Part shown: in pieces, positions 3,066 to 18,629 of the stretch
How positions within the stretch are numbered: position 1 is the stretch's first letter
Layout of the letters: the number at the start of each line of letters is the position of its first letter
Made by a program: the position numbers and the translations under genes
The notes under the pieces: model-generated
The model's input: only the letters and a program-made list of their open reading frames with translations
What the model was told of the DNA's origin: nothing
Databases searched by the model: none
DNA from: a virus
Direction: 5' to 3' (one strand)
DNA length: 64,000 bases
Virus record (IMG/VR): IMGVR_UViG_3300044641_005853
Span: 1-64,000 of that record

Positions 3066-3170
3066 TATAAATAATATGTCTGTTGAAACCGCAATCTCTA
3101 CGGACAGATTAGGTGCTCTTATGAGCACCTTTTCTATTATAAATAATAATGCGGTTTCAATAGAATAGAA
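3066..3170 (+). promoter_or_regulatory. Late promoter nested in an inverted repeat before a homing endonuclease gene
   Basis: Order of parts: late box TATAAATA (3066-3073); left arm TTGAAACCGCA (3083-3093); hairpin GGTGCTC/GAGCACC (3112-3129) plus TTTTC; second late box TATAAATA (3138-3145); right arm TGCGGTTTCAA (3150-3160); ATG at 3171. The two arms are perfect 11-bp complements. An mRNA entering from upstream would fold the right arm against the left, close to the start codon. One starting at the inner late promoter (about 3151) lacks the left arm. T4 I-TevI has this logic; its use here is inferred. Confidence 0.7.
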
Positions 3171-3854
3171 ATGACTTCACAAAGTCCAAAAATATACTTG
3201 TATAAAATTACCTTTGAAGAAGTTCCATATTACTATTATGGAGTTCATAAGGAAAAATATTTTAATGATGATTATTGGGGTTCTCCAAAAACAAATAAAT
3301 GGTGTTGGGAACTTTATACACCAAAGAAACAAATACTCCAATACTTTGATTTCAACGATAATGGTTGGATAGAGGCACAAGAAGTTGAAAAAAGAATAAT
3401 CAAACCAGTTTATAATCAAGATAAATGGTGTTTGAATGAGAGTTGTGGTGGATATTTCTCTCTCAATACTTTAAGTATTGGTGGACAAAAAGGAGGAGAA
3501 AGAGCAAAAGAACTTGGTGTTGGATTTTTTGCTATGAGTGAAGAAGAAAAATTCCAAGCAAGAAGTAAAGTAGGTAAAAGTGGAGCAGGTGGTAGAAAAA
3601 TAAAAGAACTTGGGATTGGTGTTTGTGGATTAACATTAGAGCAAAGAAGAAATCTTGGATTAAAAACCAAAGAACTTGGTGTGGGTATATGTGGATTGAC
3701 CATAGAAGAACGAAGAGAAATTTCAAAAATTGCAAATTCTCAAAGATGGGAATGTTATGAAACTGGTTATGTATCCACTGCTGCTGGTGTTGTTGCGTAT
3801 CAAAAAGCAAGAGGGATAAACACATCAAAAAACAATAGACGCAGAATATCATAA
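3171..3854 (+). CDS. Putative homing endonuclease (divergent GIY-YIG-like), 227 aa
   Basis: N-terminal domain (residues about 1-95) begins IYLYKITF and YYYYGVHK, a degenerate GIY-YIG-like opening. A conserved-looking E in W-I-E-A-Q-E-V-E-K-R and W-C-L-N-E-S-C-G-G follow. Three repeats of about 30 residues follow (KELGVGF, KELGIGVCGLTLEQRR, KELGVGICGLTIEERR), the NUMOD-like DNA-binding repeats typical of phage homing endonucleases. The C-terminal 36 residues reappear as a fragment at 6670-6777. Expected role: cutting intronless or vacant sites in related phage DNA to spread itself. Gene isolated between a nested late promoter and a terminator-promoter module. Target site unknown. Confidence 0.65.
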   Translation: MTSQSPKIYLYKITFEEVPYYYYGVHKEKYFNDDYWGSPKTNKWCWELYTPKKQILQYFDFNDNGWIEAQEVEKRIIKPVYNQDKWCLNESCGGYFSLNTLSIGGQKGGERAKELGVGFFAMSEEEKFQARSKVGKSGAGGRKIKELGIGVCGLTLEQRRNLGLKTKELGVGICGLTIEERREISKIANSQRWECYETGYVSTAAGVVAYQKARGINTSKNNRRRIS

Positions 3855-6573: not shown

Positions 6574-6689
6574 TGAAACCACTACCAGATAAAAGAGAAT
6601 TGGATATTATGTGGACTGTTGCCACCTCAACCAGTATTGAAACTGGCACAAGACCCCACCACGGTTTCGCAAAAATGGAAATGTCTTGA
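6573..6689 (+). pseudogene. Truncated small gene interrupted by an endonuclease relic
   Basis: ATG 6573 overlaps the preceding stop (TAATG). The frame runs MKPLPDKRELD through GTRPHHGFAKM, then stops 38 codons in, exactly where sequence homologous to the 3' end of the 3171-3854 endonuclease begins in another frame. PHHGFAKM looks like the middle of a longer phage protein, so I infer the original 3' part was lost when the endonuclease segment arrived. It could instead be a genuine 38-residue peptide. Confidence 0.4.
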
Positions 6690-6777
6690 AACTGGTTATG
6701 TTAGTAATGCTGGTGGACTTTCTCAATATCAAAAGGCACGAGCAATAGATACTTCCAAAAGAGTTAGAATATCATAA
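6670..6777 (+). pseudogene. Remnant of homing endonuclease C-terminus
   Basis: In frame from 6670, 35 codons read QKWKCLETGYVSNAGG and end KRVRIS before TAA. The end of the 3171-3854 endonuclease reads QRWECYETGYVSTAAG and ends NRRRIS. Homology continues past the stop through the hairpin and TATAAT of the following module. This is a duplicated and decayed segment, not an intact gene; no start or catalytic domain remains. Confidence 0.75.
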
Positions 6778-11486: not shown

Positions 11487-12818
11487 ATGAAATTAAACCT
11501 TTTCATTTTAGGAGAAGAACAAGCGTCTCTTGAAATTATGACGGTTATATCTTGGTGGATTAAATCTCCTTTGAGTGTAGATGTTAATAAAGTAAGGTTT
11601 ATTCCTGTTCCGATTTATGGCAACCTTTTCTTCAAAATTGAGGGAGTTGCTCTTGAACAATATCATTCTGTTTATTATGGAATTATATCAAAAACTGGTA
11701 ATAGTTTTGTAGATTATCTCATATACGAAGGTAATACTATTCCTGAAGAGGATTCTCTTCCTGTTGCTGCACTAGAAGCAACTAAGAATGACGGAAAAGA
11801 ATCTGGAAATATGTCAGATCAACGTGCTGGTAAAAGTATTGCTCTTCGTTCTAAGTGGGAAAATATTCCATTTGGTTACTTGATCAATCACCCAAACCCA
11901 ATTAGCAAAACTGTTAAAACTTTTGGTTTGGGTCATAACTGTGCATTTGCTACTATGAAAGCACTTAGAACTGATGTTATTATTGCACAAACAGACAAAG
12001 TAGAATTCAAGAAATATGACAATCCTATCACTTATGATTCCATTGAGAGTGTCATTGTAGCAGAAAATTCCAAACAGAAAAGGGCAGGAACTCCTTGTAG
12101 GGTGAATCGTGTTGGAAATAAGATTCAAATTCAGGCAAAATTGATTAAAAATGGTGGTAAACATGATCCTAGTGAAGGATATGTTGCTAGTCGTGCATGT
12201 TTAATTCGACATCTTGATTCAAATATTACGATTGAAATTGTCAATCACCAGCAGGACCTTCGTTACTTTCAGAGAAAGAACAATAAATTTATCAATTGCT
12301 TAAAGAAAGTTGGTGTTACTGTCATATTTGACGATTCTTCTTATGTAATTGAGCGTGAAGATAATGTGTATGAGAAATCTTATTGGAGATACTCAAAAAC
12401 TGGTGAGAAAATGTGCAGCATTGTGTTAGAGCACATTTTGATTAGTAAAGGGCACCAAATTATTTTTACGAATCATGCTGGTTGTGGTAAATCGTGGAAA
12501 AAAATCAATGGAGAATACTTCCCGACCAAGAAATCGAAAGGTATTCCCGACCTCGTATCTTACAATCCCACAAATGCAACTCTGTATGTAATTGAGGCAG
12601 AAACCACTAAAAACTATAAAAAAGGATTGGCACAGGTGCGTGATCAAAACTTTGATACTTTTATTGAAAGGGAATTTCTTCCACACTTCCCAAAAGATAC
12701 TAAAGTTTTGAAGTATCTCTGCACTTATGGACAATATAATCAAGAACCAGAGGTTCTGTTCAACTTGACAGGGGACTTTCAAATGAATTATAATGAGAAT
12801 GCTGAGGTGATTCAATGA
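11487..12818 (+). CDS. Type II restriction endonuclease candidate (PD-ExE type), 443 aa
   Basis: First gene of a three-gene overlapping operon with two DNA adenine methyltransferases. Residues about 90-120 (VAALEATKNDGKESGN) resemble the E-x-T-K...S-x-N region of several type II endonucleases. Near residues 350-370 GIPDLVSYNP followed by LYVIEAETTKNYKKG gives P-D-x(n)-E-x-E, a PD-(D/E)xK-superfamily active-site pattern like BsuBI/PstI-type enzymes. Expected role: cut DNA lacking the cognate methylation. Which motif is catalytic is uncertain. Alternative: an orphan nuclease acting on host DNA while phage DNA is methylated. Confidence 0.6.
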   Translation: MKLNLFILGEEQASLEIMTVISWWIKSPLSVDVNKVRFIPVPIYGNLFFKIEGVALEQYHSVYYGIISKTGNSFVDYLIYEGNTIPEEDSLPVAALEATKNDGKESGNMSDQRAGKSIALRSKWENIPFGYLINHPNPISKTVKTFGLGHNCAFATMKALRTDVIIAQTDKVEFKKYDNPITYDSIESVIVAENSKQKRAGTPCRVNRVGNKIQIQAKLIKNGGKHDPSEGYVASRACLIRHLDSNITIEIVNHQQDLRYFQRKNNKFINCLKKVGVTVIFDDSSYVIEREDNVYEKSYWRYSKTGEKMCSIVLEHILISKGHQIIFTNHAGCGKSWKKINGEYFPTKKSKGIPDLVSYNPTNATLYVIEAETTKNYKKGLAQVRDQNFDTFIEREFLPHFPKDTKVLKYLCTYGQYNQEPEVLFNLTGDFQMNYNENAEVIQ

Positions 12819-13783
12819 GATACATTGGTAACAAAACTAAATTACTTGATTTTATTCATGGAGAGATTCAGTCTGTCTGTGGAGATATCTCTACGTCTAA
12901 ATTTTGTGATTTGTTTTCTGGATCTGGTTCTGTAGCAAGATATTTTAAGCAGCATTGTGCCGAAGTTATTGCTAATGATCTTGAAGATTATAGTTACGTT
13001 TTGTGTCAAAATTATATTGGTAATAATGAGGTGTTTGAATATCAAAAATTGATCGATTACCTTAATAGTCTTCCTGGAGTAAAAGGAAGGTTCTATGAAA
13101 ACTTTTCTCCAGCAGCAGGACGCTCATTTTTCACAGAGCATAATGCACAAAAGATTGACGCAATCCGAATGGAGATTGAGAATCTTAATTTACCCAAAAA
13201 TCAATACTATTTTTCCCTTGCTTCATTGATAGAAACTGCAGATTCATATGCTAATACCACTGGTGTTTATGGAGCATACTTAAAGAGTTTTAACGCCAGA
13301 TCTAGTAAAAATATGAGTTTAGTTGCTCACCCTCATGTTCCTGGCGGAATAGGTAAGGTCTATAAGAAAAACGCAAACGATCTTATTCATGAGATTAATG
13401 GAGATATTCTTTATCTTGATCCTCCATATAACACTAGACAGTATGGTGCCAATTATCACATTCCAAATTACATTGTAAATTACTTTGATTTTGATTACAA
13501 TCAAGACTCAAAGACTGCTCTTGGAACTTACAATAAATCTGAGTTTTCGCAAAAGAAGTCCGTTAAGATTGCATTCGAAGATTTGATATCTAATGCAAAA
13601 TATAACTATATCTTTGTTTCGTACAATAATGAAGGTATTCTTTCCTTTGCTGATATTGAGAAGATCATGACGAAATATGGGAAATATGATCTTAAAGAAA
13701 AGGAGCACAAAAGATACAAATCAAATACAAACAATTTGCAACAATCAAAAGTAGTTGAACACCTTCACGTATTGATAAAATGA
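12815..13783 (+). CDS. DNA N6-adenine methyltransferase (D12 class), first of two
   Basis: 322 residues. Opens MRYIGNKTKLLDFI. SAM-binding motif I is DLFSGSGSVARYF (about residues 32-44), followed by an acidic strand end (IANDLEDYSYV). Catalytic motif IV is DPPYNTRQYG at about 205-214, the DPPY form of N6-adenine enzymes. It transfers a methyl group from S-adenosylmethionine to adenine in a specific DNA sequence. It overlaps both flanking genes by ATGA. Two methyltransferases beside one nuclease suggest an asymmetric recognition site needing one enzyme per strand. Confidence 0.85.
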   Translation: MRYIGNKTKLLDFIHGEIQSVCGDISTSKFCDLFSGSGSVARYFKQHCAEVIANDLEDYSYVLCQNYIGNNEVFEYQKLIDYLNSLPGVKGRFYENFSPAAGRSFFTEHNAQKIDAIRMEIENLNLPKNQYYFSLASLIETADSYANTTGVYGAYLKSFNARSSKNMSLVAHPHVPGGIGKVYKKNANDLIHEINGDILYLDPPYNTRQYGANYHIPNYIVNYFDFDYNQDSKTALGTYNKSEFSQKKSVKIAFEDLISNAKYNYIFVSYNNEGILSFADIEKIMTKYGKYDLKEKEHKRYKSNTNNLQQSKVVEHLHVLIK

Positions 13784-14721
13784 CTTTTACAGAATTTGTG
13801 CTATCTCATGAGATAGTTAAGAATCCCAAAGTTAAAACAAGAACAAATACTGCTTCTCCATTTATTCAGTGGGTTGGAGGAAAACGTTCTCTGATAGAGA
13901 AATATAATCCTTTTATACCAATAGAATTTAATCGTTATTTTGAACCATTTTTGGGTGGTGGTGCAATGTTTTATCATATGCACTCCAAATATGGAAATAC
14001 AAAAGAATACTTTCTTTCCGATTTAAACGAAGAACTTATTTTAGTTTATAATACTGTAGTTTCAAATCCAAATGAAATTGTACAATTAATTAATTACATG
14101 AGCGTAAGACACTCTAAGGAGTTTTATTATTCTGTACGCAATTATGATAGGATTGAATTGGCACCTAAGAAATATCAAAAGAATTTTGATATTATTCAAG
14201 TTCTGACTCCAATAGAAGTTGCTGCAAGATTTATCTATTTGAATCTAACATGCTTTAATGCATTGTATAGAGTCAACAAAGATAATTTGTTTAATGTGCC
14301 AATCGGAACTTCACTTAAAAAAGACATATCTGATAATGGATTATTAAAAGCATGTTCTGAAGTTTTATGTAATGCAACAATCAAATATCAATCTTACCAA
14401 TCTATGACACCAGAGAAAGGTGATTTTGTATTTCTTGATCCACCTTATGCACCAATTTCTGCAACTTCAGATTTTACTTCTTATACTACAGAAGGTTTTG
14501 GGTTAGAGAATCAAAAGGAGTTGAAAGAGTATTGTGATAATTTAAATTCCAAAGGTGTAAAGTTTATTCTTGCAAATTCTAACTGCGAATTTATCCGTGA
14601 ATTATATAAAAATTATACACAACACACTTTTTCATTGAATAGAACACTGAATTCAAAAAAGGAATTGAGAAAGCAAACCACAGATAATGAGATTATGGTG
14701 ACTAATTGTGACACTATTTGA
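13780..14721 (+). CDS. Dam-like DNA N6-adenine methyltransferase (D12 class), second of two
   Basis: 313 residues with all Dam-type landmarks in order: WVGGKRSLI (about 31-39), YFEPFLGGGAMFYHM (motif I, about 52-66), SDLNEELILVYN, and FLDPPYAPIS (motif IV, about 222-231). A target-recognition stretch with NLTCFNALYRVNKDN lies between. The first 28 residues extend beyond the usual Dam start. It closes the operon; three ACTCTGCCC repeats and a new promoter follow. Confidence 0.85.
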   Translation: MTFTEFVLSHEIVKNPKVKTRTNTASPFIQWVGGKRSLIEKYNPFIPIEFNRYFEPFLGGGAMFYHMHSKYGNTKEYFLSDLNEELILVYNTVVSNPNEIVQLINYMSVRHSKEFYYSVRNYDRIELAPKKYQKNFDIIQVLTPIEVAARFIYLNLTCFNALYRVNKDNLFNVPIGTSLKKDISDNGLLKACSEVLCNATIKYQSYQSMTPEKGDFVFLDPPYAPISATSDFTSYTTEGFGLENQKELKEYCDNLNSKGVKFILANSNCEFIRELYKNYTQHTFSLNRTLNSKKELRKQTTDNEIMVTNCDTI

Positions 14722-17272: not shown

Positions 17273-17680
17273 ATGCAACAAGATAATACTATGCGTAACG
17301 CCACAATTATTGGTGTTTCGTTCATTCTCTCTCTGTTTATTATCAACGCAGTGGTTGGTCCTCTCTATAATGTGTGGGCACAATCACTACAAGGTAAGGC
17401 AGAACTGCAAAAGGCAGAATATACTCGCCAGGTTGCAGTTCTGGAAGCACAAGCAAAGAAAGATTCTGCACAACAACTTGCTGATGCTGAGGTGATTCGT
17501 GCCACTGGTGTTGCCAAAGCAAACCAAATCATTGGTAATTCGTTGAAAGACAACCGTGAGTATCTGCAATACCTGTATATCACTGGTCTGGAAGAAGGAT
17601 CCAACAAAGGTAATGTGACGATCTATGTTCCTACGGAGAATGGTCTTCCTGTGCCAACTCTCTCCTACGATAGGAAATAA
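17273..17680 (+). CDS. SPFH/band 7-like membrane protein (short), 135 aa
   Basis: One N-terminal transmembrane segment (residues about 8-30), then a coiled alanine/glutamate-rich region (LQKAEYTRQVAVLEAQAKKD to ATGVAKANQII). It ends YLQYLYITGL and VTIYVPTENGLPVP, matching the C-terminal half of HflK/HflC-type SPFH proteins. The globular band-7 domain is missing, so it is a shortened form. A start at ATG 17291 is also possible. SPFH proteins organise membranes and modulate FtsH proteolysis; the phage role is unproved. Confidence 0.65.
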   Translation: MQQDNTMRNATIIGVSFILSLFIINAVVGPLYNVWAQSLQGKAELQKAEYTRQVAVLEAQAKKDSAQQLADAEVIRATGVAKANQIIGNSLKDNREYLQYLYITGLEEGSNKGNVTIYVPTENGLPVPTLSYDRK

Positions 17681-17775
17681 ATAATAATACCTGATTTGAC
17701 CGCAATCTATCAGGATGGAGGAGAGAAATCTCCTCCTTTTTAATATAAATATATGTGCGGTCAAATTAGAGTAGA
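17676..17775 (+). promoter_or_regulatory. Late promoter nested in an inverted repeat before a GIY-YIG endonuclease gene
   Basis: Same parts and order as 3066-3170: late-type box AATAAATA (17676-17683); left arm ATTTGACCGCA (17694-17704); perfect hairpin GGAGGAGA-GAAA-TCTCCTCC (17717-17736) with T5; inner late box TATAAATA (17744-17751); right arm TGCGGTCAAAT (17756-17766); ATG 17776. The arms are perfect 11-bp complements. CCGCAATCT and TGCGGT are identical to the first copy, while flanking bases changed on both arms in a compensating way. Confidence 0.75.
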
Positions 17776-18351
17776 ATGAAAGGCACTATCTATTGTGTCC
17801 ATTGTATTTCAACAGGAAAGAAATACATAGGACAAACAATACAAAAATTACAATACAGAATAAATGACCACTTTTGTAGGTCTTCTAACTCACAATATAA
17901 ATTCCATCGTGCTATAAAAAAGTATGGTAAAAATAACTTCATTTATGGTGTGATTGAAGAATGTGATTTTGAATTGATAAACGAAAAAGAAATGTATTGG
18001 ATAAGAATTTATGATACATTTAAGAATGGATATAATAGTGATACTGGTGGAATGAATGGTAGGTTGCTTTCAGAAGAAACTAAAAGTAAAATACAAAAGA
18101 AAGCACATAAACAAAACAACCCAAGATATGGAGTAAAACTTGATAATGATTTGAAGGAAAAAATAAGAGAATCAAATGCAGATTATGAATATTGTATAGT
18201 GGAACTTGAAAACAACATCACACATAAAACAAACAGTTTAAGAGATTTTTGTAAAAGATATGATTTAAAAAGAGCAAATCTAACAAGAACTTTTACTGGA
18301 AAATATAAACAGCATAAAGGTTTTAGAATGGTAAGTAAGGTGCCACTTTAA
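17776..18351 (+). CDS. GIY-YIG homing endonuclease, 191 aa
   Basis: GIY-YIG catalytic domain at residues 1-90: GTIYCVH, then KKYIGQTIQKLQYRINDHF with the conserved Arg, and the metal-binding Glu in NEKEMYWIRIYDTF followed by GYNSDTGG. Next comes a NUMOD3-type repeat (LSEETKSKIQKKAHKQNNPRYG), then a C-terminal helix-turn-helix-like end (LRDFCKRYDLKRANLTRTF). Expected to make a site-specific break and spread by repair. Freestanding, not in a visible intron. Preceded by the nested late promoter. Confidence 0.85.
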   Translation: MKGTIYCVHCISTGKKYIGQTIQKLQYRINDHFCRSSNSQYKFHRAIKKYGKNNFIYGVIEECDFELINEKEMYWIRIYDTFKNGYNSDTGGMNGRLLSEETKSKIQKKAHKQNNPRYGVKLDNDLKEKIRESNADYEYCIVELENNITHKTNSLRDFCKRYDLKRANLTRTFTGKYKQHKGFRMVSKVPL

Positions 18352-18420: not shown

Positions 18421-18564
18421 ATGACTGACCCACAAATCACTGACGAACAAATCAAAAAGATTTTTGAAGACTTTTGTGAGGAAGATGGTACTATGGACTT
18501 TGGAAACTTTCGTATGGCAGTAAGAAAAGTACAACATACAATCGGACAAAATGCACTCAAATGA
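18421..18564 (+). CDS. Hypothetical protein, 47 aa
   Basis: Reads MTDPQITDEQIKKIFEDFCE then MDFGNFRMAVRKVQHTIG. The D-x-x-x-I-x-x-I-F-x-D-F layout looks like half of an EF-hand-like helix pair, but no calcium loop is evident. Own promoter upstream. Function unknown. Confidence 0.55.
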   Translation: MTDPQITDEQIKKIFEDFCEEDGTMDFGNFRMAVRKVQHTIGQNALK

Positions 18565-18629
18565 CCGAAGGTGGGATGCCTGTTCCCACTTTGCAAATGA
18601 ACAAGTGACACTTTGATTAGTGGCACACT

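Follow-up and report, generated by a model that had tools for sequence, protein, structure and literature searches.

A cassette common to unrelated cyanophage homing endonuclease genes resembles a small antisense RNA unit with its own late promoter

Homing-endonuclease-like genes of several unrelated families in cyanophages are preceded by a common cassette that comprises two late-type promoter boxes, a hairpin, an intrinsic terminator and two complementary arms, with both promoters and both arms on one strand. Cyanophage contigs hold at least 150 distinct versions of it. The outer promoter, the terminator and a covarying hairpin (hairpin 1) that holds the left arm in its loop have the appearance of a small-RNA gene; judged from sequence, they look like an RNA gene of ~55 nt whose predicted product is complementary to the endonuclease mRNA over its first ~15 nt. 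In our preferred reading, to which we give a probability of about 0.6, the endonuclease is kept from being translated by a late-phase antisense RNA made in tandem with its target, and read-through transcripts silence themselves. The small RNA is probably a brake on the endonuclease that travels with the endonuclease gene.

No published description of the cassette was found in the literature searched, the coverage of which was incomplete. What appears undescribed is an RNA that is separate from the message, is equipped with a late promoter and a terminator of its own, and is common to unrelated endonucleases; the self-silencing of read-through RNA is the principle already known from T4 I-TevI, SegB and MobE. 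According to a review from 2010, no small trans-acting regulatory RNA of T4 had been functionally characterised, and candidates were hoped for from its relatives (PMC3014915); the small RNA of the cassette is one such candidate. If the preferred reading is true, selfish nucleases from several unrelated families are under the control of one compact RNA module of ~95 bp, which would be a rare regulator common to unrelated mobile genes. It would also offer a naturally occurring set of over 50 matched sense/antisense pairs built on a single scaffold, and would make testable how free-standing endonucleases limit their own cost, a question left open in PMC2988022.

Two copies of the cassette in the window

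The window is the whole stretch of viral DNA that was analysed (64,000 nucleotides, IMG/VR record IMGVR_UViG_3300044641_005853). It contains two copies of the cassette. Copy 2 has the following parts, of which the small-RNA start was placed by its spacing to the late box.

17676-17683, + strand: outer late-type box AATAAATA, read from the sequence; its TAA (17678-17680) doubles as the stop codon of the upstream gene
17689-17741, + strand: predicted small RNA of ~53 nt, a 5' hairpin with the left arm in its loop and then an intrinsic terminator
17690-17714, + strand: hairpin 1, in which CCTGAT (17690-17695) pairs with ATCAGG (17709-17714)
17691-17704, + strand: left arm (anti-leader) CTGATTTGACCGCA, forming a duplex with 17756-17769
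17717-17741, + strand: intrinsic terminator GGAGGAGA-GAAA-TCTCCTCC-TTTTT, read from the sequence, with a covarying helix (hairpin 17717-17736, T-tract 17737-17741)
17744-17751, + strand: inner late promoter TATAAATA, a TATAAA-type box
17756-17769, + strand: right arm TGCGGTCAAATTAG, which makes up most of the predicted mRNA leader
17776-18351, + strand: GIY-YIG + NUMOD3 homing-endonuclease-like gene of 191 aa, ATG at 17776

The corresponding parts of copy 1 are:

3066-3073, + strand: outer late box TATAAATA, read from the sequence
3077-3133, + strand: predicted small RNA, hairpin 1 followed by the terminator (3112-3133, with its hairpin at 3112-3129)
3138-3145, + strand: inner late promoter TATAAATA, read from the sequence
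3150-3164, + strand: right arm TGCGGTTTCAATAGA, forming a duplex with 3079-3093
3171-3854, + strand: GIY-YIG-like homing endonuclease ORF of 227 aa, ATG at 3171

In hairpin 1 of copy 1, TGTCTGT (3077-3083) pairs with ACGGACA (3100-3106), and the left arm (3079-3093) occupies the 5' strand and the loop. The endonuclease mRNA of copy 2 would start at about 17757. The RNA duplex between the arms has 14 consecutive base pairs in copy 2 and 15 in copy 1; in both it includes a single G-U pair, at an equivalent position of the scheme. The motif CCGCAATCT occurs twice in the window, compared with 0.18 expected occurrences. A covariance model (R1) matched copy 2 at 17677-17741 with 65.1 bits and copy 1 at 3067-3136 with 45.2 bits.

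Re-reading of the sequence recovered every part of both copies that had been named in the preliminary description. It had called order and spacing equal; the order is indeed identical, but the spacing is only nearly so, with 51 and 56 nt between the arms. The arm pairing that it proposed is real, although just a part of each helix had been counted. It overlooked hairpin 1, which is a third pairing, as well as the self-contained small-RNA unit, and stayed at intramolecular pairing.

The copy 2 endonuclease matches the Pfam families GIY-YIG (E=4e-7) and NUMOD3 (E=1e-4), both above the Pfam cut-offs, and PHROG 314, homing endonuclease (E=3e-27). The copy 1 endonuclease matches the same PHROG (E=4e-8), has no match in Pfam, and is 56% identical to gp091 of phage S-SRM01, which is preceded by a cassette of its own. 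A C-terminal relic of a copy-1-type endonuclease (QKWKCLETGYVSNAGGLSQYQKARAIDTSKRVRIS) lies at 6668-6777 of the window and has no cassette. Elsewhere in the window (11487-14721), a gene for a 443-aa protein that has no Pfam match is followed directly by two neighbouring genes for D12-type adenine methyltransferases; together they may form a restriction-modification-like set.

Distribution of the cassette

In all, 152 unique elements were catalogued, among which ~58 different 8-nt arm cores occur. Self-complementarity over 8-16 bp is seen in nearly every one of them. The elements come from freshwater cyanobacterial phages and from at least one marine phage, the isolate S-B68, which has one cassette between its DNA polymerase and uvsX genes. 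The relatives in S-SRM01 and B23 were first found by blastn against phage records; whole-genome scans that used the inner box, the arms, a T-run and an ORF as criteria, and that did not require the outer box, together with later scans, gave seven copies in S-SRM01 and three in B23. A 136-kb contig (IMGVR_UViG_3300040856_003054, our G003, loci L256-L262) harbors nine cassettes with eight different arm pairs, two of its endonucleases having the same arms.

IMG/VR was scanned with the pattern TAAATARTANTRCYTG-N40-70-TATAAATA, which holds no arm, gene or terminator information. Arms of at least 10 Watson-Crick pairs were present in 110 of 123 viral matches (among the matches listed). In 257 Gb of cellular genomes, which were scanned with a somewhat looser form of the pattern, 1 of 40 matches had such arms. 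When left and right arms were taken from different elements (the cross-pair null), ~0.7% reached 10 pairs.

Model searches gave no match in S-PM2, S-CRM01, S-CBWM1, T4, Aeh1 or Ma-LMM01. A match in Syn9 (31 bits) was rejected as a cassette; it consists of a terminator and a late promoter, and no matching arms were seen by eye. The blastn matches in S-SCSM2R and S-8S55 were discarded as well, as they cover only a terminator or a late promoter. Rfam has no family for the element, as judged from both copies, the whole window and six relatives.

Promoter boxes and covariation of the helices

The promoter calls rest on the late-box consensus, and promoter activity is predicted; NATAAATA is the reported late promoter of S-PM2 (PMC2984593). 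A TATAAA-type inner box is present in 79 of 79 aligned elements, and in all elements the start codon follows 19-31 nt past the inner box. The frequency of the outer box is partly selected, since most elements were gathered with a pattern that contains it. Among 144 elements that were defined without the outer box, 136 have TAAATA at 3-16 nt upstream of the left arm, and a control window gave 0 of 144. In records that had not been fetched by the outer-box pattern, 15 of 18 elements have the box, and one of the three exceptions is probably a chance match.

In a MAFFT alignment of 79 elements, 80% of the cells of the arm helix are paired, compared with 62% in shuffles and 28-46% when the arms are slid; because the elements were chosen for having arms, this percentage is partly selected. 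The stronger test of the arms is formed by the double changes together with the cross-pair null. There are 210 double-change cells in the arm helix of the same elements and 76 in shuffles. RNA pairing of the arms is strongly supported by these comparisons, in line with the preliminary description, which had taken a compensating change between the two copies of the window as evidence for such pairing.

Hairpin 1 covaries independently, with 89% of its cells paired and 21 double changes, compared with 5.7 in shuffles. Its stem is CCTGA/TCAGG in most elements, with GCTTG/CAAGC, CCTAA/TTAGG and CCTT/AAGG among the others, and its loop contains the left-arm core. The stem begins 3-9 nt, mostly 4 or 6 nt, past the outer TAAATA, which is about where a late transcript is expected to start. 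In 41 elements with CTGA/TTAG, a left-arm G has C as its partner in hairpin 1 and U in the leader, which is what a strand with two alternative partners would require. A terminator with a GC stem and a T-tract stands between the arms in nearly all elements, and its helix covaries.

The predicted duplex between a small RNA and its cognate leader has a median of -22.4 kcal/mol, compared with -9.2 kcal/mol for other leaders of the same genome. In the predicted fold of the small RNA alone, the stem is closed and the arm core is 71% unpaired. In predicted read-through transcripts the arms pair with each other in 146 of 148 cases, a state 12.5 kcal/mol better than one with a free leader.

Downstream genes, variants and remnants

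The preliminary description had suggested a portable cassette that accompanies homing endonucleases, and the wider collection agrees with this: with the exception of a few units that are orphaned or decayed, the cassette stands before endonuclease-like ORFs of many families. Arms that diverge without compensation, and matches away from mobile genes, were likewise confined to a few such units; elsewhere the opposite was found. Of the downstream proteins, 127 of 140 fall into one large single-linkage cluster and the rest into small groups. Representatives match GIY-YIG, NUMOD3, HNH, HNH_3 or, weakly, Endonuclease_7 in Pfam, or homing/HNH endonucleases in PHROG; one is DUF7487 in Pfam and a homing endonuclease in PHROGs, and a few short proteins have no or only partial family matches. 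The same arms stand before unrelated endonucleases and vice versa: 273 protein pairs without detectable similarity have a common 8-nt core, and 117 pairs that are at least 60% identical have different cores. By these sequence pairs, arms and endonuclease type are unlinked.

A variant (class II) was observed in S-SRM01 (near 77600) and at loci L050, L072, L134, L168, L201 and L370 (phage Sf-CH5), mostly before TYAYLRED-type endonucleases. Its arms reach, or almost reach, the start codon, and one long hairpin with a conserved GCAGC/GCGTAAGTCCCA motif contains the left arm. Arms and inner box are present, and a clear outer late box is often absent.

Orphan small-RNA units, composed of a late box, hairpin 1 and a terminator with no inner box or endonuclease directly downstream, occur at L071, L105, L166, L181 (5677), L183 and L184. 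The arms of some recur unchanged in full cassettes of other phages. The contigs with orphan units were found to lack a second copy of the target arm and therefore provide no evidence of action in trans. Mismatched arms accompany a degraded inner box or gene at L168 and L187, and L207 has mismatched arms alone. These orphan and decayed units look like remnants, and L184 can be read as a short deletion.

The mobile insert at copy 2

Copy 2 lies within a larger unit:

17630 to about 18570 (approximate), + strand: mobile insert, which starts with a recoded protease-gene 3' end, followed by the cassette, the endonuclease gene and a small ORF

The gene that precedes copy 2 is present in 80 contigs, of which three (L290, L292 and L307) carry the same insertion; the remaining contigs have the native ...QMNK end followed by the stop codon and no cassette, and represent empty alleles. 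The insert is 98-100% identical across the window and the three carriers, and the cassette within it is 100% identical. The protease-coding flanks are 81-89% identical in L292 and L307, and the sequence beyond is unrelated in all three carriers. A near-identical insert shared between diverged flanks places the cassette inside the mobile unit.

The insert brings its own recoded 3' end for the upstream protease-like gene (ENGLPVPTLSYDRK and a stop codon; ...SYDRK and a stop codon). The native end (PVPTLQMNK and stop codon) is displaced past the endonuclease to 18566-18608, as if the insert repaired the gene into which it lands. An ORF of ~47 codons (18421-18565) rides along. For copy 1, a search for endonuclease-free alleles yielded three weak relatives of the upstream gene; no cassette follows them, and their downstream sequence is too diverged to fix a boundary.

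Proposed mechanism and alternative explanations

In the preferred reading, RNA polymerase with a late sigma factor (gp55-type) would start at the outer TAAATA and produce the ~55-nt RNA, in which the 5' hairpin would expose the left arm in its loop ahead of the intrinsic terminator. The inner TATAAATA box would give the endonuclease mRNA, with a leader of ~20 nt that starts with the right arm and reaches the ATG. The loop of the small RNA would pair with the 5' end of this mRNA, hairpin 1 would open, and the resulting duplex of 10-16 bp would cover the leader and block ribosome binding. The anatomy, the complementarity and its covariation are observed; transcription from the two boxes and inhibition are predicted from them. 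In read-through transcripts, or transcripts from upstream early genes, the left arm would fold onto the right arm and silence the message in cis, like in T4 I-TevI, segB and Aeh1 mobE. With these transcripts silent, the endonuclease would be made from the inner promoter only; its amount would follow that of the mRNA left free by the small RNA and would fall as copies multiply. Cassette and endonuclease gene would move as one unit. The occurrence of intact orphan units and the position of the cassette within a mobile insert speak for this reading. That the small RNA acts in trans is what we infer from this arrangement; since the terminator separates the arms, pairing in cis would be open to read-through RNA only.

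An extension of the preferred reading is that small RNAs act between co-infecting phages, so that a cassette or an orphan unit silences an incoming endonuclease with a matching leader arm; such specificity-matched immunity among selfish endonucleases would drive arm diversification. We regard this as speculative and rather unlikely.

The data are compatible with cis pairing alone being what selection sees. One alternative is a purely cis-acting late switch of the I-TevI/segB/mobE type, in which the outer box and the terminator are ordinary upstream signals. The left arm would silence early or read-through leaders, and transcription from the inner late promoter would start inside the helix and free the leader. 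Nesting of this kind has been established in endonuclease genes of T4 and Aeh1 (PMC2988022, PMC3014915), arm pairing dominates the predicted read-through transcripts, and class II retains the arms and the inner box, usually with no clear outer box. An excess of arm diversity within one genome, which was expected, was not found when arms were compared within and between genomes; this gives no sign of selection for orthogonal trans pairs and can be listed in favour of a cis switch, but is in itself neutral between the trans and cis layers. A cis switch does not explain why hairpin 1 has a late box at its 5' end in almost every element or why this hairpin covaries independently, and the terminator kept between the arms would end most RNAs before the right arm. 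We consider it a possible explanation of the whole cassette, though a doubtful one.

Very unlikely, in our judgement, is an inverted repeat that functions as DNA, either as an operator for autorepression by the endonuclease or as a recombination site. I-TevI does bind an operator that overlaps its own late promoter (PMC2988022), and the cassette promoter is flanked by inverted repeats. However, the idea was rejected since arms are not linked to endonuclease type, as is evident from the 273 and 117 protein pairs mentioned above; G-U pairs at fixed places fit RNA and not DNA, and hairpin 1 would have no role.

Similarly improbable as the sole explanation is a shuffling cassette without regulatory RNA, in which a shared promoter-terminator sequence aids gene swapping by recombination. 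Promoter-stem-loop cassettes (PeSLs) are reported to mediate shuffling in T4-type phages, in work cited in PMC4503421, and the occurrence of the same arms with many endonucleases would fit. The compensating changes in the arms and in hairpin 1 are not explained by shuffling, and PeSLs are named for early promoters; PeSL-like shuffling can be true in addition to the preferred reading. Finally, late boxes and terminators are common in this type of genome, but a chance resemblance between two late promoters is refuted by the viral and cellular arm counts and has a negligible probability.

Comparison with known systems

The closest design is that of T4 I-TevI, I-TevII, I-TevIII, segB and gene e and of Aeh1 mobE, where a late promoter is nested in a hairpin that hides the ribosome-binding site (PMC2988022, PMC3014915). 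Common to these systems and the cassette are a late promoter inside a helix, upstream transcripts that silence themselves (a prediction for the cassette), an association with mostly homing endonucleases, and an occurrence in T4-like phages. In the cassette, the helix over the translation start region has the late promoter between its two strands, and the leader is paired in nearly all predicted read-through RNAs; in these structural features it corresponds to an I-TevI-type design, as far as folding predictions go. It goes beyond this design with an extra outer late promoter, a hairpin that presents the left arm, and a terminator between the arms. Moreover, each T4 or Aeh1 hairpin was described with one gene, whereas one cassette scaffold with interchangeable arms is common to many unrelated endonuclease families. 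The additional parts have the features of a small-RNA unit: a predicted late-box promoter of its own upstream, a terminator before the target leader, and an exposed, covarying region predicted to pair with the target.

As in IS10, the DNA-cutting enzyme of a mobile element would stand under the control of a small antisense RNA. The template of RNA-OUT overlaps its target on the opposite strand, and the loop of RNA-OUT pairs with the mRNA 5' end. The opposite-strand layout was not found in the cassette, where a separate inverted copy of the leader, in tandem with the target and on its strand, encodes the predicted antisense RNA. In IS10/Tn10, RNA-OUT pairs with RNA-IN and blocks ribosome binding on the mRNA of the DNA-cutting enzyme, and repression rises with copy number (PMC5006887).

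Another phage antisense RNA, CfrI of cyanophage S-PM2, is linked to a homing endonuclease gene (PMC2984593, PMC12197685). This RNA differs in that it is ~225 nt long and antisense to psbA and the endonuclease gene, instead of being a tandem RNA complementary to a leader. The c4 RNA of phages P1 and P7 is encoded upstream of its target on the same strand and has short complementarity at the ribosome-binding site; it arises by processing of the target transcript, and an antirepressor is under its control. The cassette differs by its predicted dedicated late promoter and its homing endonuclease targets. The c4 work of Citron and Schuster (1990) is known to us as cited in PMC2864571 and PMC12197685. 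A search for the Rfam family C4 (RF01695) gave no match with E<=1 at either copy and none at the gathering score in the window or six relatives.

The cassette and PeSLs are both small mobile promoter/terminator modules common to genes of T4-type phages. A PeSL consists of an early promoter and a stem-loop; the boxes of the cassette are both late-type (TAAATA/TATAAATA), and an early (sigma-70-like) promoter was not found in it. We know of no PeSL with a complementary leader or paired late promoters. By analogy, the cassette would work like IS10 RNA-OUT/RNA-IN and P1 c4 combined with the nested late promoters of the I-TevI type.
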